From Bacillota bacterium (GTDB lineage Bacteria; Bacillota; Clostridia; Peptostreptococcales; Anaerovoracaceae): DNA of 12,653 nucleotides. This document shows, in pieces, positions 2-11,000 of the stretch. Every line of letters begins with the position of its first letter. The first letter of the stretch is position 1. Below the pieces are notes generated by a model. The model made no database searches and was not told the DNA's origin. It was given only the letters and a program-made list of their open reading frames with translations. The position numbers and the translations under genes are program-made. The DNA is taken from assembly GCA_016282655.1 (NCBI GenBank), contig JAEELK010000164.1:1-12653 (forward strand), read 5' to 3'.

Positions 2-1798
2 ATCCTGATCATCAGCATCTGTTCCACCGCGGCCTCCGTGGCCTACGTTTATTTTACGGAGTACACAAAAGAGGTCTCCTATGCCGGGCTCGTGCTCTTG
101 AACGAGATCTTCTTCTTTTTCCACACGATGCTGGCGGGCAGCCTGACCCTTTATTTCATGAACGTCAACGGCTCCGCGCTGGGCCGTCCGCGGCGCTTCT
201 ACGCCGCCTACGCGATCCCCTTCCTGCTCGGCGAGCTCATGATCATGCTGAACCCCGCCACAAAGCTCGTCTTTTATATCGACGAGGCGCTCGTGTATCA
301 CCGCGGGCCCGTCATGCCGCTGCTCTACGCCCTGGCGCTCCTGTATATCCTGACGGGCTTCTTTTACTTCTTCCGCTACAAACGGGCCATCTCGCACGCA
401 GAAAGCATCGTCATCTGCAGCGTCGTGGCGCTGGCCGCGGTCGGCACGGTCCTGCAGGCCCTGCGTTCCGAGCTGCTGGTGGAGCTCTTCCTGGAGTCCA
501 TCGCGATCCTCACGCTGATGATCATCCTGGAGGATCACAGCAGGGCGCTCGACCAGGCGACGCAGGTCTCCAACCGCAGCGCCTTCAACGAAACGAACAA
601 GCGGCTGATGGAGACGGAGCAGCGCTACAGCATCGTGCTGCTGCGGATCCAGAATTTCAATTTCTTCTCGCGCCTCTTCAACAGCAGGAGCATGGACCGC
701 CTCATGGCGGACGTGGCCGCCTGGCTGCAGCACTTCGCCGGATGGGAAGACATCTTCCGCTTCTGGCAGGAAGGCTTCGCGATCCTCGTGTACGACCCGG
801 AGGGCAGAAGGGCCGAATCGCTTGCGCGGACGTTCAGCACGCGCTTCGATTCCGTCTGGAGCACGGATGAGGTGAGCGCGAAGCTCGAGACCGTCACGGG
901 CGTCGTGCGCGTGCCGGAGGACGTAAACAGCCTGCCGCAGCTGCAGGACCTGCTGATCAGCGGCTTTCAGGACACGCAGCCCGGCACGCTCCTCTCGCGC
1001 GCGGACGTCGCCGGCGCCAAGCGGGCCCTGGCGGTGGAGGACGCGCTGCGGAAGGCGATCCGCGACGAACGGATCGAGGTCTGGTATCAGCCCATCTGGT
1101 CTGCGGAGAGCGAGTCGATCGTGGCCGCGGAGGCGCTCGTGCGGCTCAGCGACGAGGCGCTGGAAGACCTGCATCCGGACGAATTCATCCCGCTCGCGGA
1201 AAAGAGCGGCATGATCCACGATCTGGGCCGCTTCGTCTTCCGGGAGACCTGCCGCGTCATCAGCCAGCATCGCCTGCCCGAGCGCGGCATCCGCTACGTG
1301 GACGTGAACGTGTCGCTCTATCAGTTCCTGCGCGACGATCTCTTCGCGTCCTTCGAGCAGACGCGCGGCGTGTACGGCGTCGCGGCGGAGCAGATCAACC
1401 TGGAGATCACGGAAGGCCTCGCGCTGGAGGAGATCGACCTGGTGGACCGGACCATCGAACAGATGCGCCGCGCCGGCTACAGCTTTTCGCTGGACGACTA
1501 CGGCACGGGATTCTCCAATCTTTCGCGGCTCCTGGAAGGGGAGTACATGAACATCAAGATCGACAAGTCGATCCTCTGGGGCGGAGAGCGGAACCCGGAA
1601 AAAGCAAAGCTGCTGGACGACCTCATCCGGATCATCCGCAGCATGCGAAACAACGTGGTGCAGGAAGGTGTGGAAACGAAAGAGCAGCTGGAGCGGGTGG
1701 TCCGCTCCGGCGCCAATCTGATACAGGGCTATTATTTCAGCCGTCCGCTCCGCGAAGAGGCCTTCGTGGACTACTTAGATAAAATGAACGGTCGTTAG
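2..1798 (+). CDS. Membrane-anchored EAL-domain c-di-GMP phosphodiesterase with degenerate GGDEF domain (5' partial)
   Basis: The reading frame is open from base 2, so the true start lies outside the window; numbering here uses the in-frame GTG at 38 as residue 1. The N-terminal ~165 residues hold several hydrophobic segments (around 17-42, 58-70, 93-114, 121-139 and 146-165), a membrane sensor module. Residues ~175-300 resemble a GGDEF domain (SNRSAF near its start), but the signature reads WQEGF at 243-247, so cyclase activity is unlikely. The EAL domain (~345-586) looks catalytically complete: E365-A-L, N424, E456, the DDYGTG motif at D486-D487, K507, D509, E543 and Q563. The expected activity is hydrolysis of cyclic di-GMP to pGpG at the inner face of the membrane, possibly controlled by the degenerate domain. 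It ends 10 bases from the convergent rnhA stop and no terminator is visible between them. The domain call is firm; the sensed signal is unknown. Confidence 0.93.
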   Translation: MLIISICSTAASVAYVYFTEYTKEVSYAGLVLLNEIFFFFHTMLAGSLTLYFMNVNGSALGRPRRFYAAYAIPFLLGELMIMLNPATKLVFYIDEALVYHRGPVMPLLYALALLYILTGFFYFFRYKRAISHAESIVICSVVALAAVGTVLQALRSELLVELFLESIAILTLMIILEDHSRALDQATQVSNRSAFNETNKRLMETEQRYSIVLLRIQNFNFFSRLFNSRSMDRLMADVAAWLQHFAGWEDIFRFWQEGFAILVYDPEGRRAESLARTFSTRFDSVWSTDEVSAKLETVTGVVRVPEDVNSLPQLQDLLISGFQDTQPGTLLSRADVAGAKRALAVEDALRKAIRDERIEVWYQPIWSAESESIVAAEALVRLSDEALEDLHPDEFIPLAEKSGMIHDLGRFVFRETCRVISQHRLPERGIRYVDVNVSLYQFLRDDLFASFEQTRGVYGVAAEQINLEITEGLALEEIDLVDRTIEQMRRAGYSFSLDDYGTGFSNLSRLLEGEYMNIKIDKSILWGGERNPEKAKLLDDLIRIIRSMRNNVVQEGVETKEQLERVVRSGANLIQGYYFSRPLREEAFVDYLDKMNGR

Positions 1799-2392: not shown

Positions 2393-2421
2393 ATTATGTG
2401 CGAAAAAGCAGGGAATGTAAA
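2393..2421 (-). promoter_or_regulatory. Probable sigma-A promoter of rnhA
   Basis: On the minus strand TTTACA (2416-2421) and CATAAT (2393-2398) are separated by exactly 17 bases. Transcription would begin near 2386, leaving a leader of only about 20 bases that already contains the AAAGGAG site. The -35 hexamer read on the plus strand is TGTAAA, a WalR-type half-site, so the two signals overlap. Confidence 0.6.
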
Positions 2422-2437
2422 GGCATCTTAAAAACGG

Positions 2438-2454
2438 TGTAATACGTTTGTAAT
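2438..2454 (+). promoter_or_regulatory. WalR (YycF)-type binding box, direct repeat TGTAAT-N5-TGTAAT
   Basis: The sequence is TGTAAT, five bases, TGTAAT. It matches every position of the published WalR consensus TGT(A/T)A(A/T/C)-N5-TGT(A/T)A(A/T/C). The 11-base register continues upstream: CTTAAA at 2427 (4 of 6 matching TGTAAA) and an exact TGTAAA at 2416, giving up to four half-sites one helical turn apart. The last half-site ends ten bases before the TATACT -10 (2465-2470), the geometry by which OmpR/PhoB-family activators replace a -35 element. No walR gene lies in the window, so the binding protein is inferred. Confidence 0.7.
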
Positions 2455-2464
2455 AGACTTCGAT

Positions 2465-2470
2465 TATACT
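2465..2470 (+). promoter_or_regulatory. -10 element (TATACT) for the secreted protein-yycH-yycI unit
   Basis: TATACT differs from the consensus by one base. No recognisable -35 exists at 2442-2447 (ATACGT), as expected for a promoter that needs an activator at the adjacent direct repeats. Transcription would begin near 2477, leaving a leader of about 84 bases before the ATG at 2561. The leader contains short inverted repeats but no clear riboswitch. Confidence 0.55.
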
Positions 2471-2560: not shown

Positions 2561-3094
2561 ATGAAAAAAGTGATCATGGCCCTCGTGCTCGTGCTGACGC
2601 TGCTCTGCGGCAGCTGCTTCGTCTGCGCCGCTTCCGACCCCGCCGTCACCGTGGTCAACCCGCAGGGCAACAGCACCGTCTACGCGGACAACATCCTGAT
2701 CTCCGTCAAGGTCACGGCCACCCGCGTCCTGAAGATCACGGTCTTTGAAGAAAAACTCCTGAACGAGGACGGCAGCCTCAGCTCTCTGGACAGCCTGGAA
2801 GCGCTGGGCCAGGTCACGGCGGGCAGCCTTCGCCACGTGGTCGTCTCCCCGGCGGAGACCTTCTACAGCAACGGCAATCTCAGCTTTTACACCAAAGAAC
2901 TGAAGGGCATCACCCCCGGCATCTACAAGCTGCGGGTCACCACGCTGGACGAGAACGGGCGTACCCAGTACCTGCAGGAGTGCTACGTCGTCGTGCGGCC
3001 CCCTTCCGAGGCCAAGGCGCTCAGCTTCCAGTCGGAGCAGTCCGGCGTGCTCAGCTTCCTGCAGAGCTTCCTGAAAAACATCTTCGGCAACTAA
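2561..3094 (+). CDS. Small secreted protein with a probable beta-sandwich (Ig-like) fold, unknown function
   Basis: This 177-residue protein is not one I recognise. The start at 2561 is chosen because AAAGGAGGT (2545-2553) sits seven bases upstream; the frame is open further upstream, but only this start gives a proper signal peptide. Residues 1-24 are a signal sequence (MKK, a hydrophobic run from 4 to 15, then VCA/A or CAA/S near 23-25). The cysteines at 16 and 19 do not sit in a good lipobox, so secretion by signal peptidase I is more likely than lipidation. The mature part has alternating strands (VTVVNPQGN, ILISVKV, LKITVFEE, IYKLRVTTLDENG, CYVVVRP) suggesting one extracellular Ig-like domain, then an amphipathic tail (GVLSFLQSFLKNIFGN). 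It is the first gene of the unit with yycH (9-base gap) and occupies the place walK usually has. A role at the cell surface or in WalK signalling is inference only. Confidence 0.8.
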   Translation: MKKVIMALVLVLTLLCGSCFVCAASDPAVTVVNPQGNSTVYADNILISVKVTATRVLKITVFEEKLLNEDGSLSSLDSLEALGQVTAGSLRHVVVSPAETFYSNGNLSFYTKELKGITPGIYKLRVTTLDENGRTQYLQECYVVVRPPSEAKALSFQSEQSGVLSFLQSFLKNIFGN

Positions 3095-3103
3095 GGCAGG
3101 GAA

Positions 3104-4570
3104 ATGTCCAGAGCCAGAAATATAGAAGCGCTGAAAAACATCCTGATAGTAGTATTGTTTCTGACAACGATACTACTATTGTATTTTTTGTGGGAAAACG
3201 TCACCATGAAGACCTTCCGCCTCTCCTCCATCCTGCCGGCGGGCAGCAGCCACAGCCTGCGGGCGGAGGACGTGACCCGGCCGGAGGAGATCGTCTTCTC
3301 CTTCGGGGCGGGCGGCGTCACGGCGGACCCGGACGTCGACGGAAGATACTGGGAGCTCTGGATGAACGCGTTCCAGAAATACTGCGGACGGGGAGAGCTC
3401 CTGGCGGAGGAGATCAGCCGCGCCCAGTTCCTGCAGCTCACGGACTACCGTGCGGTCTTCTGCCGCTTCGCGTATGACCTGCCTCTGGAGAGCTTCTGCC
3501 AGCAGCGCGGCATCAGCAACCGGGGCCTGAATCAGATCGCCTGCGTGACGGAGATGGGCTATTCGGCGGGCAGTCCGGAGAGCGTTTTCCTGTACGACGG
3601 CCGCAGCGGCAGATGCTACCGCCTGGTCTCGGAGCTTCCCGCGGAGGGCTTCGAGGAGATCATCCGCGCGGCGGAGCAGGGCGAATATCTGGTCTACTAC
3701 GGCGCGGCGAGCCTCTTCGGCGCGGAGAGCAGCGCAGTGCTGCCCCTGAACTACAGCAGCACGCTGGCGGAGACGCCCTGCGGCGCGGAGCTGGGCGGCG
3801 CGGACGACGCGGAGCGGAAAGCGATCGCGGAGCAGTTCTTCGGCGCGGACTTCGGTTTCGTGCGGCGCATCGAGGAGAGCCAGGGCAGCCTGATCTACAT
3901 GTACGGCTACGATCAGAAGACGCTGACCTTCGCCGCGGACGGCAGCATGGTCTACCGCGAGGCCCTGAACGGCGAGGCGGGCGCCCGCCGCGACTATTTC
4001 GAGGCGCTGCAGGACGCGCTGGACTTCATCGAGAACTACGGCGGCTGGCGGGAGGAGCAGGGCAGGCATCTGCAGCTGCGCGTCCGCGACGCCTACGAGA
4101 TCGAGAGCGACCGGCAGAAGGGCTATCGCTTCGTCTTCGGCGTCGGGCTGGAAGGCGTGCCGCTCTACGGCGGGGACGGGAACCTGCTGACGGTCGAGAT
4201 CTACGGCAGACAGGTCACGGCATACCGGCGCTGCCTGCCGGACGGCGATCTGGAAAAATGGAAAGAAGACAGAGAAAAAGAAGCGTTCTCCGTGGTGGGG
4301 CTCCTCAGCGAGGGCTATCCCGCCATCTACGAGGCGCTGCGCGGCGAGGCGCCGCCGCCCGTGCCGCCGGAAGGGGAGGAGGCGCCGCAGGAAGGCGCTT
4401 TCGAATGGGTGGCCGCGCGCCTGCAGAATGCGCGTCCCGGCCTGGTGAGGGACGCGGAGCGCGAAGGCAGCCTCCGGCCCGCCTGGGTCCTCTGCGTGGA
4501 CGACTGTGACTTCTTCTACGATCTTTACAGCGGCGAGGCTTTCGGCGCCGTGCCGCGGCAGAAGGATTAA
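3104..4570 (+). CDS. yycH: YycH-like (WalH) extracytoplasmic regulator of the WalRK system
   Basis: A 488-residue protein with a short cytoplasmic N-terminus, one membrane helix (residues ~13-30) and a large extracytoplasmic domain. In Bacilli, YycH and YycI bind each other and the WalK histidine kinase through their membrane helices and tune its activity. Assignment rests on the topology, the length (about 450 in Bacillus), the immediately following yycI and the yycJ-htrA-rlmH order; similarity of the outer domain is weak, as usual in Clostridia. A Pro/Glu-rich linker lies at residues ~415-431, before a final ~57-residue segment. The ribosome binding site (GGCAGGG) is modest and the gap to the preceding stop is nine bases, so coupling is likely. 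The codons for the membrane helix are strikingly AT-rich and form a hairpin (see 3146-3179). Confidence 0.82.
   Translation: MSRARNIEALKNILIVVLFLTTILLLYFLWENVTMKTFRLSSILPAGSSHSLRAEDVTRPEEIVFSFGAGGVTADPDVDGRYWELWMNAFQKYCGRGELLAEEISRAQFLQLTDYRAVFCRFAYDLPLESFCQQRGISNRGLNQIACVTEMGYSAGSPESVFLYDGRSGRCYRLVSELPAEGFEEIIRAAEQGEYLVYYGAASLFGAESSAVLPLNYSSTLAETPCGAELGGADDAERKAIAEQFFGADFGFVRRIEESQGSLIYMYGYDQKTLTFAADGSMVYREALNGEAGARRDYFEALQDALDFIENYGGWREEQGRHLQLRVRDAYEIESDRQKGYRFVFGVGLEGVPLYGGDGNLLTVEIYGRQVTAYRRCLPDGDLEKWKEDREKEAFSVVGLLSEGYPAIYEALRGEAPPPVPPEGEEAPQEGAFEWVAARLQNARPGLVRDAEREGSLRPAWVLCVDDCDFFYDLYSGEAFGAVPRQKD
3146..3189 (+). other. Intragenic AT-rich hairpin with T-run at the start of yycH
   Basis: Bases 3146-3159 pair with 3166-3179: the outer ten pairs (ATAGTAGTAT with ATACTACTAT) are perfect, followed by one G-U wobble and three more pairs, closing a six-base loop TCTGAC. 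Six T residues follow at 3184-3189. The stem is written with ATA, GTA, GTA, TTG on one side and ATA, CTA, CTA on the other, in a gene otherwise dominated by G/C-ending codons. The structure resembles a weak intrinsic terminator or attenuator. Its function is inference. Confidence 0.55.
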
Positions 4571-4579
4571 GGGGGCGCC

Positions 4580-5305
4580 ATGGACTGGAAGAAAGCCAAG
4601 AACATCATCATCGCGGCGCTGCTCCTGACCAACCTCTTTCTGCTCGGGCTGAACCTCTATGCCCGCTACGAAGGGCACCAGCAGACGGCGGAGGAGCAGC
4701 GGGCCATCCAGCAGCTGCTCGAGGAGCGGGGCATCCGGCTCGGCGCTGAGCTCCCGGCGCAGGAGCGCATGGGCGCGCTGCAGGTGGAATACGTGCATCT
4801 GGACGCGACGCGCCTGGCGAAGGCGCTCCTGGAGCAGGAGAGCCTGCCCGCGGACGCCTCCGAGGCGGAGATCGAGCAGAGCTGCCGCGCGTTCCTGCGC
4901 GCGCTGGCGGGCCGGGACGAAGAGTTCCTCCTGCAGAGCGTCAGCGCGGCGGGCGCGCAGACGGAACTGCGCTTCTGCAACGCCTATCACGGCATCCCGA
5001 TCGACGGGAGCTACCTCATCTGCAGCTGGGCGGACGGCCGCGTCCTCTCGCTGCAGCACAACTGGCTCCGCCCCCTCGAAGAAGGCAGCCGCATGGAGAC
5101 CATGGCTGCCGCGGTGGCGCTCCTGGAATTCGCGGGCGGACAGAGCCGCGGCGCGGCGCTGGAGGTGGAAGCGGTGGAGCTGGTCTACTGGCTGGACGAC
5201 AGCAGCATGGAGACCGCGGAGCTGCTCTCGGACACCGCCATGCCCGCCTGGCGCATCACCTGGGGAGACGGTCTGGTGGCGCACGTCAGCGCGTACAACG
5301 AGTGA
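4580..5305 (+). CDS. yycI: YycI-like (WalI) regulatory membrane protein
   Basis: A 241-residue protein starting MDWKKAKNIIIAALLLTN, which closely follows the characteristic MDWSK-K-I N-terminus of YycI. One membrane helix (residues ~7-26) is followed by a glutamate-rich amphipathic stretch and an extracytoplasmic domain with YycI-type features (CNAYHGIPIDGSY, WRITW near the C-terminus). YycI works with YycH to control the WalK sensor kinase of the essential cell-wall regulon. The start lies nine bases after the yycH stop behind a GGGGG ribosome binding site, so the pair is an operon. A rho-independent terminator begins 25 bases after the stop, closing the unit. Residue conservation outside the N-terminus is modest, but the context leaves little doubt. 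Confidence 0.87.
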   Translation: MDWKKAKNIIIAALLLTNLFLLGLNLYARYEGHQQTAEEQRAIQQLLEERGIRLGAELPAQERMGALQVEYVHLDATRLAKALLEQESLPADASEAEIEQSCRAFLRALAGRDEEFLLQSVSAAGAQTELRFCNAYHGIPIDGSYLICSWADGRVLSLQHNWLRPLEEGSRMETMAAAVALLEFAGGQSRGAALEVEAVELVYWLDDSSMETAELLSDTAMPAWRITWGDGLVAHVSAYNE

Positions 5306-5432: not shown

Positions 5433-6227
5433 ATGAAGATGCGATTTTGTTCCCTGGCCAGCGGAAGCAGCGGAAACTGCTATCTCGTGGCCACACAGCA
5501 CAGCGCGATCCTGCTCGACGCGGGGATCAGCGCGAAGCGCGTCTGCGAAGGGCTGGCCCAGGCCGGCCTTCGTCCGGAAGACATGGACGCTCTGCTCTTC
5601 ACACACGAGCACAGCGATCACACCAAAGGCCTGCTCCCCATCCTGCGCAAATGCCGGAACATGCAGGCTTACGCCAGCGACGGGACCCTGCGGGGCCTCC
5701 GGGGGGAAGGTCTGGCGGAGCGGTTTCGGGCCATACGGCCGGGCGCCAGCTTCCGGGTGGGAGAGATCGAAGTGCGGAGCTTTCCGCTCTCGCACGACGC
5801 GGCCGAACCGACCGGCTACAGCTTCCGGGCGGAAGGCAGGCAGATCACGGTCCTGACGGACAACGGCGCGGTCTCTCCGGAGCAGCTGGAAGAGCTGCGG
5901 AGCGCGGACCTGCTGGTGCTGGAAGCCAATCACGACGTGGATATGCTCCGCATCGGACCGTATCCGTATCCGCTGAAACGCCGCATCCTGAGCGATCGGG
6001 GGCATCTGTCCAACGAGGGGGCCGCAGAGGCGCTGGTACAGAGCCTGCTGGAGGGAACAAGACCGAAGCGCGTGCTGCTGGCGCATCTCAGCAAAGAGAA
6101 CAATTTCCCCGAAATGGCCTTTCAGACCGTAAAGAACCGTCTGGAAGAAGCCGGCCTCTTCCTTGGGAGAGACCTGGAGATGGAGATCCTTTCCAGAGAC
6201 TGTCCCGGCAGCGTGTACGAACTGTAG
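5433..6227 (+). CDS. yycJ: YycJ/WalJ metallo-beta-lactamase-fold nuclease
   Basis: A 264-residue protein, the usual family length. It opens with the family signature FCSLASGSSGNCYLV (residues 5-19), and the metal-binding motif of the fold is complete: H58-E-H60-S-D62-H63, with later ligand candidates H121, D143, H167 and H218. YycJ homologues are cytoplasmic single-domain MBL proteins linked to DNA metabolism (5'-3' exonuclease activity and mutation avoidance reported in Bacillus and Streptococcus). They travel with walRK without being signalling proteins. The start has only a modest GGTGGT ribosome binding site about six bases upstream. It is the first gene of a unit with htrA, which follows after 19 bases. 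Confidence 0.93.
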   Translation: MKMRFCSLASGSSGNCYLVATQHSAILLDAGISAKRVCEGLAQAGLRPEDMDALLFTHEHSDHTKGLLPILRKCRNMQAYASDGTLRGLRGEGLAERFRAIRPGASFRVGEIEVRSFPLSHDAAEPTGYSFRAEGRQITVLTDNGAVSPEQLEELRSADLLVLEANHDVDMLRIGPYPYPLKRRILSDRGHLSNEGAAEALVQSLLEGTRPKRVLLAHLSKENNFPEMAFQTVKNRLEEAGLFLGRDLEMEILSRDCPGSVYEL

Positions 6228-6246: not shown

Positions 6247-7644
6247 ATGGAAAACAACAACATCAGAAACGATAATATACAGGAACCGCAGAGCGCCCCG
6301 AACTTTGTCATGGTAGACACGAGCGGACAGCCGCCCGTACCGGCCTCTGCACAGGAAGCCCCGAAAGAGGCCTCCATGGAATTCGGCCCCAAACAGAGCA
6401 GCGCCCCGCAGAAGAAGCGGAGCGGAAAGGCCTGGAAGGTCCTTCTGAGCCTGCTCCTCGTCATCTGCCTGGGATTCGGCAGCGGCTATGTCGGCGCGGG
6501 TCTCGCGATGCGGCAGGCGGCGCAGGGCGCCGACGGCAGCATCCTGAGCCAGAGCGCGGAGCTCTCCGGCGTGCAGGTGATGACGGACAGCAACATCAAC
6601 ACGGCGGAGGCCGTGGCGGCAAAGGCCATCCCCTCGGTCGTGGGCATCAGCACACAGCGGGAAGTGAACTACTTCTCCTTCTTTGGAAACAGCACCGGCA
6701 TCGCCAAGGGCGTCGGCACCGGGATCATCGTCTCGGAAGACGGCTACATCATCACCAACTCGCACGTCATCAGCGACGGCGAGGCGGATCAGATCACCGT
6801 ACAGCTGACGGACGGCAGAGAGCTCTCCGGCGAGGTCATCTGGTATGACGCCAACATCGATCTCGCGATCCTCAAGATCGAGGCGGAAGGGCTCGTCCCC
6901 GCGGAGCTCGGCGATTCCGACGCGGTCAACATCGGCGCCTACGTGGTCGCCATCGGCAACCCGCTCGGCATGGCCTATGACAGAAGCGTCACGCAGGGCG
7001 TCATCAGCGGTCTCGGCCGCAGCATCCAGGCGGCAAAGGACAGCTACAGCTCGCAGGTCAACAGCATGAGCAACATGATGCAGACCGACGCGGCGATCAA
7101 TTCCGGCAACAGCGGCGGGCCGCTGCTCAACAGCCGCGGACAGGTGATCGGCATCAACACGGCCATGGCGCCTTCCGCGGAGGGCATGGGCTTCGCGATC
7201 CCCATCAACACGGCCAAGAACATCCTGGAGAGCGTCATGGCGGAAGGCCATGTCACCAAGGCCTACATCGGCATCCAGGGCATGGACGTGACGGCGTATG
7301 AGCAGTACGTGCCGCAGTACAAAGCTCCTTGTGAGAACGGCGTCTACGTGCTGGAGCTCATCCCGGACGGCCCGGCGCTCGAAGCGGATCTGCGCGTTGG
7401 CGACGTCATCGTGGGTCTGGACAAAATGTCGGTCGACAGCATGTCCGGCCTCCAGAGGAGCCTCTACAATTACAAACCCGGCGACACCGTCGTCGTGAAA
7501 TTCTACCGCAACGGCAGCCTCATGGAGCAGGAAGTCACCCTGCAGACCCTGCCGCAGGCGGAAACGGGCAGCAGCGACAAGGGAAGCAGAGAAGAGAACT
7601 TCTCCCGCAACGGCTCCGGCTGGCAGGGATTCTTCGGGAACTAA
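6247..7644 (+). CDS. htrA: HtrA/DegP-family membrane-anchored serine protease with one PDZ domain
   Basis: A 465-residue protein. A disordered, Gln/Pro/Ser-rich N-terminus (1-60) precedes one membrane helix (~65-87), a trypsin-like domain (~115-315) with the triad H173 (TNSHV), D205 (NIDLAIL) and S289 (NSGNSGGP), and a C-terminal PDZ domain (~340-440, with GDVIVGLDK). Such enzymes degrade misfolded exported proteins outside the membrane and respond to envelope stress. The start is set by AAAGGAG (6230-6236) ten bases upstream; an in-frame open stretch extends further 5' but overlaps yycJ. It sits between yycJ and rlmH, the usual Firmicutes order. The C-terminal ~30 residues after the PDZ domain are Ser/Gly-rich and end in an aromatic GWQGFFGN. 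Confidence 0.96.
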   Translation: MENNNIRNDNIQEPQSAPNFVMVDTSGQPPVPASAQEAPKEASMEFGPKQSSAPQKKRSGKAWKVLLSLLLVICLGFGSGYVGAGLAMRQAAQGADGSILSQSAELSGVQVMTDSNINTAEAVAAKAIPSVVGISTQREVNYFSFFGNSTGIAKGVGTGIIVSEDGYIITNSHVISDGEADQITVQLTDGRELSGEVIWYDANIDLAILKIEAEGLVPAELGDSDAVNIGAYVVAIGNPLGMAYDRSVTQGVISGLGRSIQAAKDSYSSQVNSMSNMMQTDAAINSGNSGGPLLNSRGQVIGINTAMAPSAEGMGFAIPINTAKNILESVMAEGHVTKAYIGIQGMDVTAYEQYVPQYKAPCENGVYVLELIPDGPALEADLRVGDVIVGLDKMSVDSMSGLQRSLYNYKPGDTVVVKFYRNGSLMEQEVTLQTLPQAETGSSDKGSREENFSRNGSGWQGFFGN

Positions 7645-7650
7645 GCAGCC

Positions 7651-8130
7651 ATGAACGTTCGGATCCTTTGCGTCGGCAAGCTGAAAGAGCAGTACTGGAC
7701 GGAGGCCTGCGGAGAATACATCAAGCGTCTTGGACGCTACTGCAGCCTCAGCGTTACGGAAGTCAAAGAAGAGAAGGCCCCGCCGGAACTCTCCCCCGCG
7801 GAAGAGGCGAAGGTGAAGGAGAAAGAGGGCCGGGAGCTGCTGCGGCAGCTTCGGGACGGCAGCTACGTGATCGCGCTGGAGGTCGGCGGAAAGAGACTTT
7901 CCTCCGAAGGGCTGGCGGAGAAGATCGAGTGCCTGGGGCTGGCCGGCAAAAGCGAGATCTGCTTCCTCATCGGCGGCTCGCTCGGCCTATCGGACGAGGT
8001 CCGCGCCCGCGCCGACATGGCGCTCTCCTTCTCGGACATGACCTTTCCGCACCAGCTCATGCGGGTCATCCTGCTGGAGCAGATCTACCGCTCCTTCAAG
8101 ATCCTGAAGCATGAGGTCTATCACAAATAA
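7651..8130 (+). CDS. rlmH: 23S rRNA (pseudouridine-1915 N3)-methyltransferase RlmH
   Basis: A 159-residue SPOUT methyltransferase, exactly the family length. The SAM-binding knot is recognisable as LIGGSLGLSDEV (residues ~106-117), followed by the LSFSDMTFPHQLMR region and LLEQIYRSFKI; the C-terminus ends in YHK, as in known RlmH. It methylates pseudouridine 1915 in helix 69 of 23S rRNA on assembled 70S ribosomes. It begins six bases after the htrA stop with no strong ribosome binding site, so translational coupling is likely. It is the last gene of the yycJ-htrA-rlmH unit and is followed by a run of hairpins. Confidence 0.97.
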   Translation: MNVRILCVGKLKEQYWTEACGEYIKRLGRYCSLSVTEVKEEKAPPELSPAEEAKVKEKEGRELLRQLRDGSYVIALEVGGKRLSSEGLAEKIECLGLAGKSEICFLIGGSLGLSDEVRARADMALSFSDMTFPHQLMRVILLEQIYRSFKILKHEVYHK

Positions 8131-9926: not shown

Positions 9927-9949
9927 GCGGCGCGGAGGCCGCGCGCCGC
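9927..9949 (-). other. GC-rich hairpin directly after the lrgB stop
   Basis: GCGGCGCG (9927-9934) pairs perfectly with CGCGCCGC (9942-9949) around a seven-base loop. It has no T-run on the minus strand, so it probably protects the 3' end or adds to the terminator 25 bases further on. Confidence 0.5.
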
Positions 9950-10644
9950 TACAGCAGGTAGAGCACGATCAGCGGGCAGAGCAGCGCGGTGAATACGCCG
10001 CCGAGGACCATGGCGAGGCTGGACATGGTGCCGGCCTCCTGGCTCTCCTCGAAGGCGCGGGCCGTGCCGGCGGCGTGGCTCATGGTGCCGAGCGCGAGGC
10101 CGATGGCCCGTTCGTCGCGGATCCGGCAGAGCCGCAGGAACTGCGGGCCGAAGATGGCGCCCAGATTGCCGGCGATCACCACCATGGCCATGGTCAGCGA
10201 GCCGACGCCGCCGATGGTCTCGGAGAGATTGATGGCGATGGCCGCGGTGGAGCTGCGCGGCAGCATGGAGATGAGCAGTTCTCTGTCCACGCCCATCAGC
10301 CGGCAGAGGAAGATCAGCATGGCGAGCGAAGCCACCGTCCCGATGAGGGTGGCCAGAACGAGCGGCAGCAGGTTCTTTTTCAGAAAGTCCAGATGCCGGT
10401 AGAGCGGCAGCGCCAGAACGACGGCCGTCACGGGCAGCGTGAAGCTCAGGAGCATGTTCTGCGCCTTGTATTCGGCATAGGGGACGTGCAGGAAGAGCAA
10501 AAAGAACACGACCAGCAGGGTGCTGACGAGGATGGGCTGCAGCACGGCGCGGCCGCTCTTTTTATAGAGCCAGCAGCCGAACCAGAAGCTGCCCAGCGTG
10601 AGGCAGAGGCCCCAGTAGGGGTTGCTCAGAAAGAACTCTCTCAT
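9949..10644 (-). CDS. lrgB: LrgB-family membrane protein
   Basis: A 231-residue polytopic protein with about six or more hydrophobic segments (roughly 13-30, 34-54, 63-82, 90-112, 145-168 and 208-231). The C-terminal family signature is clear: GLALGTMSHAAGTARAFEE, then SSLAMVLGGVFTALLCPLI. LrgA and LrgB act together. They were first described as antiholin-like regulators of murein hydrolase export and autolysis; the Bacillus pair (PftAB) imports pyruvate, and the plant homologue PLGG1 carries glycolate and glycerate. The ATG overlaps the lrgA stop by four bases (ATGA), and AAGGAGG (10649-10655) lies four bases upstream inside lrgA. No lytSR regulator is nearby. Confidence 0.94.
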   Translation of the reverse strand: MREFFLSNPYWGLCLTLGSFWFGCWLYKKSGRAVLQPILVSTLLVVFFLLFLHVPYAEYKAQNMLLSFTLPVTAVVLALPLYRHLDFLKKNLLPLVLATLIGTVASLAMLIFLCRLMGVDRELLISMLPRSSTAAIAINLSETIGGVGSLTMAMVVIAGNLGAIFGPQFLRLCRIRDERAIGLALGTMSHAAGTARAFEESQEAGTMSSLAMVLGGVFTALLCPLIVLYLL

Positions 10645-11000
10645 TGCGCCTCCTTCCGGCCGTGCTTGCGGCGCAGCAGGAGCTCCGTGACCTTCGCGGT
10701 GACGTAGAGCCCGAAGAGGCTGCTGAGGATGACGGGGATCAGGATGCGCAGCAGATTGTGTCCCAGCGTGCCGAGGTGATCGATGAGCCCGACGCCCGGG
10801 ACCACAAAAAAGAGCATCATATTCCGGGTGATCAGCTCGCAGAGCGCGGCGATGCTCTCCGGCCTCACCGCCTTCAGGCAGAGGAGGAGGAAGAGGATCA
10901 GCAGACCGGCCACGCTGCTCACCAGGTAGATGCCGGTAAAATGGGAGACGATCTCTCCCAGGAAGAGCATGAGCAGGATCAGAAACGCCTGGCGTATCAT
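10641..11000 (-). CDS. lrgA: LrgA/CidA-family membrane protein
   Basis: A 119-residue hydrophobic protein with four predicted helices (roughly 5-25, 27-46, 60-77 and 86-108) and a basic tail (RRKHGRKE). It shows the holin-like family pattern: a conserved stretch after helix 2 (LKAVRPESI), then ITRNMMLFFVVPGVGLIDHL. It is the expected partner of LrgB and overlaps it by four bases. Its start lies nine bases after the stop of the NfnA-like gene without a strong ribosome binding site, so it depends on translation from upstream. This puts the electron-transfer protein and the transporter pair in one transcript. Confidence 0.92.
   Translation of the reverse strand: MIRQAFLILLMLFLGEIVSHFTGIYLVSSVAGLLILFLLLCLKAVRPESIAALCELITRNMMLFFVVPGVGLIDHLGTLGHNLLRILIPVILSSLFGLYVTAKVTELLLRRKHGRKEAQ

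Follow-up and report, generated by a model that had tools for sequence, protein, structure and literature searches.

A predicted WalR-dependent promoter in front of a secreted-protein, yycH-like and yycI-like operon in Clostridia

In Firmicutes the cell wall is under the control of WalRK, an essential regulatory system. Are the genes that tune the kinase WalK themselves under the control of WalR? The question is raised by the DNA analysed here (the window), which is the whole 12,653-nucleotide contig C221 of a draft Anaerovoracaceae genome (1.41 Mb, 247 contigs, 88.6% complete). The original prediction, that WalR drives the wal accessory genes of this contig together with a gene for a secreted protein, gained support from the presence of walRK in the genome and from the conservation of the repeated motif in relatives. 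We put the probability at roughly 80% that the region upstream of these genes is a WalR-activated promoter without a -35 element, serving the secreted Ig-like protein, yycH and yycI, and that its output feeds back on the accessory half of the system only; this reading is built on sequence comparison.

The half-site array and the genes that it faces

The stretch TGTAATACGTTTGTAAT at 2438-2454 matches the WalR consensus TGTWAH-N5-TGTWAH, in the form quoted in PMC9210968, without a mismatch, as had been claimed for it, and it is the sole exact match in the window. When up to two mismatches are allowed, the window contains six matches against 1.45 expected. The box is composed of the predicted half-sites 3 (TGTAAT, 2438-2443; family consensus YGTAAY) and 4 (TGTAAT, 2449-2454), the latter being the proximal one and predicted from its sequence and its conservation in the family. 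Two further predicted half-sites lie upstream at the positions originally given for them, a degenerate half-site 2 (CTTAAA, 2427-2432) and a distal half-site 1 (TGTAAA, 2416-2421). All four are on the forward strand, and together they span 2416-2454 in an exact 11-bp register. The box is followed after 10 nt by a -10 element, TATACT (2465-2470, forward strand), from which a transcription start near 2477 is predicted. The described lack of a -35 holds as well, the best hexamer at spacers of 15-19 matching TTGACA at 2/6 positions. Across the genome as a whole the box alone is weak evidence, since it has four exact matches against two for a reversed-pattern control. The box combined with the 10-nt distance and the -10 yields one match with no mismatch, and the control none.

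The first gene downstream of the array (2561-3094, forward strand) encodes a protein with a signal-type N-terminus, for which neither a Pfam family nor an NCBIfam family was found. A structural model from 28 sequences (mean pLDDT 85) consists of a signal-type helix, an Ig/FnIII-like sandwich whose fold matches are generic, and, apart from the sandwich, a C-terminal helix modelled with lower confidence. The alignment shows that this C-terminal end is well conserved and includes one invariant Phe. The next two genes on the same strand score below the curated Pfam cut-offs, at 19.2 bits for PF07435 (cut-off 27; 3104-4570) and 19.2 bits for PF09648 (cut-off 29.7; 4580-5305), and match no NCBIfam family; therefore we keep the names yycH-like and yycI-like. 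The gene order supports these names. The yycI-like gene is followed by an MBL-fold gene in the yycJ/walJ position (5433-6227, PF12706), an HtrA-like protease gene (6247-7644, PF13365 and PF13180) and an rlmH-like SPOUT methyltransferase gene (7651-8130, PF02590), all on the forward strand, and walK precedes the genes in class relatives.

Conservation of the array in the family and the class

A search with the protein of 2561-3094 recovered it in 42 of 119 genomes, and 30 family loci were fetched. A box with at most one mismatch is present within 260 bp upstream of the first gene in 29 of them (1.6 expected from dinucleotide shuffles), and the exact box in 13 (0.07 expected from the same shuffles). 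The single miss, L068, is a locus whose protein match starts at residue 86, and its true upstream (L098) holds the exact module. The usual layout in the family is TGTAAA-N5-YTTAAA-N5-YGTAAY-N5-TGTAAY-N10-TATAMT, so that the 11-bp repeats are kept in relatives, as the original prediction had proposed to check. The exact proximal module, that is, half-sites 3 and 4 with the -10, was found in 49 of 90 relatives' genomes. With one mismatch allowed the figure rises to 58/90, and matches of this kind away from the locus were left out because the control is then not clean (14 matches against 74). For exact matches, the shuffles and the reversed-pattern control rule out a chance origin of the array. 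The yycH gene lies downstream in all 25 exact-module loci fetched from the search of 90 relatives. At one of them, L094, a yycH match directly follows the module and no secreted-protein match was found, so that yycH appears to be the target that stays constant.

Beyond the family, we searched the class with a pattern limited to the proximal pair of half-sites plus the -10, regardless of locus. Exact matches were obtained in 81 of 291 class genomes (83 matches), compared with four matches for the reversed pattern. In 25 of the 30 class loci fetched, the module lies 9-148 nt behind the end of a walK match; a yycH match follows the module in 20, and the next ORF encodes a small protein of secreted type, judged by eye from its N-terminus, in 28. 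The distal half-sites are absent from the search pattern, and their cores are invariant in 57/57 non-redundant instances, with T at -20 and A at -18 in half-site 1 and TAA at -9 to -7 in half-site 2. Most spacer positions are near random across the same set, which comprises exact-module instances only (65, without L165, minus rows at least 80% identical to kept ones and the off-locus L144 and L158). None of these 57 instances carries a -35 above 3/6; nine score 3, against about 31 that score at least 3 after base shuffling. From its sequence pattern, the array is a promoter element of four half-sites in fixed arrangement that recurs across the class, and not a local curiosity. Exact modules also occur off the locus within the class, at L144, L158 and L165.

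Outside the class, the module was found in 28 of 241 genomes, and 0 of the 10 loci fetched is a wal locus. The module, here two half-sites and the -10, precedes birA-like genes at L168 and L169 and related putative envelope-protein genes at L171 and L172. Another regulon may therefore use it outside the class (L168-L173).

An rnhA-like gene (RNase H, PF00075) lies on the other side of the array at 1809-2366 on the reverse strand; it adjoins a GGDEF-EAL protein gene (2-1798, forward strand) that is truncated by the contig start. A promoter-like site for rnhA, TTTACA-N17-CATAAT, is found on the reverse strand at 2393-2421, and half-site 1, read as its reverse complement, forms the -35 of this site. 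With this overlap, the array could belong chiefly to the divergent promoter of rnhA, or be an AT-rich chance patch, and WalR would then play no role in it. The TTTACA is indeed kept in 26 of 29 family loci compared with 9 of 44 loci elsewhere, and a -10 for rnhA of at least 5/6 in 9/29 compared with 0/44. However, rnhA is divergent in none of the 44 outside-family loci (which include the off-locus L144 and L158), where the array persists and faces the same operon, and the shuffles fail to reproduce the array. We regard this explanation as very improbable. The rnhA site seems to have been added to an older array at the level of the family, and WalR bound at half-site 1 might hinder rnhA.

WalR in the genome and other predicted WalR boxes

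The genome contains four OmpR-family regulators. One of them is encoded on contig C26, after a LysM/M23-type peptidase gene and before a WalK-like kinase gene. The best matches of its DNA-binding domain are the solved VicR, YycF and WalR domains, and the stretch RTVDVTVRRLREK, which covers the WalR recognition helix, is identical in 2d1v (YycF) and 2hwv (VicR), which we take to be the B. subtilis and E. faecalis proteins. Its best NCBIfam family is YycF with 337.3 bits, just under the cut-off of 340; that of the kinase is WalK with 511.5 bits (cut-off 725). Hence walR and walK are both present, and, as originally proposed, they are not adjacent to the accessory operon, which lies on another contig. 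On family contigs that carry both loci, walR is tens of kilobases away from yycH (e.g. on contig C42 of G003, at 49.2 kb and 89.2 kb), which excludes an assembly artefact as the cause of the split.

Among the relatives, the exact module was found in 49 of 65 genomes with WalR and in 0 of 25 without (Fisher p 9e-12, kinship ignored). It likewise goes with yycH, which was found in 38 of 61 relatives: 34 of the 38 have the exact module, compared with 0 of 23 without yycH. The four exceptions comprise G028 and G043, which carry a module with one mismatch near the locus, G008, whose contig begins at the module position, and G027, in which WalR and yycH are present, yycH lies behind a parallel rnhA and the promoter module is lost. 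In eight of the 61 relatives WalR is present with neither a yycH match nor an exact module.

In promoters activated by PhoB/PhoP, tandem 11-bp half-sites of an OmpR-family regulator replace the -35. The array is alike in this respect, and the genome encodes three OmpR-family regulators besides WalR, one of which could be the protein that uses it. Yet the consensus here is that of WalR, matched exactly, and the three other regulators have recognition helices that depart from that of WalR. The position just behind walK in most of the class loci and the lack of the module in every relative without WalR also argue for WalR, so a regulator of the PhoB/PhoP type appears improbable to us.

The genome search for boxes, another check set out with the original prediction, led to a gene for a cell-wall amidase. 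An exact box in reversed orientation precedes this gene on contig C208 (L103:1810-1826), and the arrangement is conserved, with an exact reversed box in 9 of the 14 amidase-like loci examined (of 30 fetched) against 0.02 expected. The distance to the -10 was taken in the 11 amidase loci whose box has at most one mismatch, and TATAMT lies 36-38 nt after the reversed box in 10 of them. The predicted WalR sites thus occur in two orientations, each with its own distance to the -10. Two other exact boxes were seen in the genome. The one on contig C4 (L101:1155-1171) is reversed and lies about 70 nt before a gene similar to those of Na/phosphate cotransporters, with no clear -10 at the amidase distance; the one on contig C197 is followed by a start codon after about 23 nt.

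The walR upstreams of relatives look different. No exact box was found in 33 of 34 (14 from the family, mostly 3.7 kb, and 20 at the level of the order, about 1.2 kb), a count of exact boxes only, in which the promoter of a longer operon could sit further upstream. The single exact box, at L212, is reversed. Contig C26 starts inside the upstream peptidase gene, which places the promoter of its walR off the contig. The feedback therefore seems to fall on the accessory operon only and not on walRK. This scarcity of boxes agrees with the statement in PMC9210968, in the part cited here, that wal operons are not autoregulated in C. difficile or other Firmicutes.

A proposed feedback on the accessory half of the wal system

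We infer the course of events at this promoter, from WalR binding and activation, through the arrangement of the dimers, the start site and the extent of the operon, to the sign of the feedback. Two WalR dimers would sit in tandem on the four 11-bp half-sites, from about -61 to -23 relative to the predicted start. The bound WalR would stand in for the missing -35 and bring RNA polymerase to TATACT. The resulting operon would comprise the genes for the secreted Ig-like protein, YycH and YycI, and perhaps continue into yycJ-htrA-rlmH. YycH, YycI and perhaps the secreted protein would then act on WalK at the membrane, so that WalRK output would set the dose of its own modulators, with walRK itself free of boxes.

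WalR might also bind the array and repress the accessory operon, in which case the loop would be reversed. In S. aureus, the position of the site decides the mode of action, and sites between or downstream of the -35 and -10 are linked to repression according to the portion of PMC10746227 used here; half-site 4 is located where that spacer would be. We regard this rule as the strongest objection to activation. However, there is no -35 from which the promoter could work unaided, and box and -10 are 10 nt apart in all pattern instances and in the family loci found by protein. As the missing -35 and this fixed distance make activation the simplest reading, and the former supports it well, we consider repression unlikely, though less so than the alternatives above, and take WalR to be the probable activator.

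Because the modulators of WalK would be made from a WalR promoter, a feedback loop on the accessory half is predicted. Its sign would depend on whether YycHI inhibit WalRK, as in B. subtilis where they are repressors, or stimulate it, as in S. aureus where they are activators (both as summarised in PMC10746227).

The secreted protein may act from outside the membrane as a modulator of WalK or YycHI, as an analogy with other small secreted proteins of feedback loops suggests. One such protein is CpxP, which is small, secreted, encoded by the regulator's own target operon and placed to act on the sensor outside the membrane. The likeness to CpxP-type proteins lies in these features, and the protein here is predicted to be Ig-like. 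Unannotated so far, it is likely a new part of the wal system.

The array shares with known WalR sites the exact consensus, the 11-bp direct repeat, the WalR recognition helix and a cell-wall amidase as a target. It differs from them in its four half-sites in fixed register, the fixed distance to the -10, the absence of a -35, the WalK accessory operon as the predicted target and the class-wide conservation. The walRKHI(J) operons of Bacilli also contain genes for YycH/WalH and YycI/WalI, which follow walRK in many class relatives. Unlike those operons, the genes described here are headed by a secreted-protein gene and have a predicted WalR-box promoter of their own, and in Anaerovoracaceae the operon is separated from walRK; for walRKHI of S. 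aureus, the passages of PMC4801191 cited here place two promoters upstream of walR. The wal operon of Clostridioides difficile is given in the cited part of PMC9210968 as walA-walR-walK-truA2, where walA encodes a predicted lipoprotein. It is alike in having an extra envelope-protein gene, but that account lists no yycH, puts walA upstream of walR and reports no autoregulation. A WalR site before yycH in Clostridia did not appear in the titles or abstract beginnings among the matches listed for WalR/YycFG in one open-access library.

A class-wide circuit, in which a box-free walRK is paired with a WalR-activated accessory operon and its first product, the secreted Ig-like protein with the conserved C-terminal helix, serves together with YycHI as a new extracellular modulator of WalK, has in our estimate about an even chance of being correct. 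If so, the rule that wal operons are not autoregulated would hold for walRK and fail for the genes that tune WalK. A four-half-site promoter on the accessory operon throughout the class offers a testable feedback circuit, and the accessory promoter would be a natural WalR reporter promoter.

The window that carries the wal accessory genes also contains, on the reverse strand within 9949-11000, a gene for an LrgB-like autolysis modulator. It is preceded by a small membrane-protein ORF (10641-11000), which is LrgA-like by eye.
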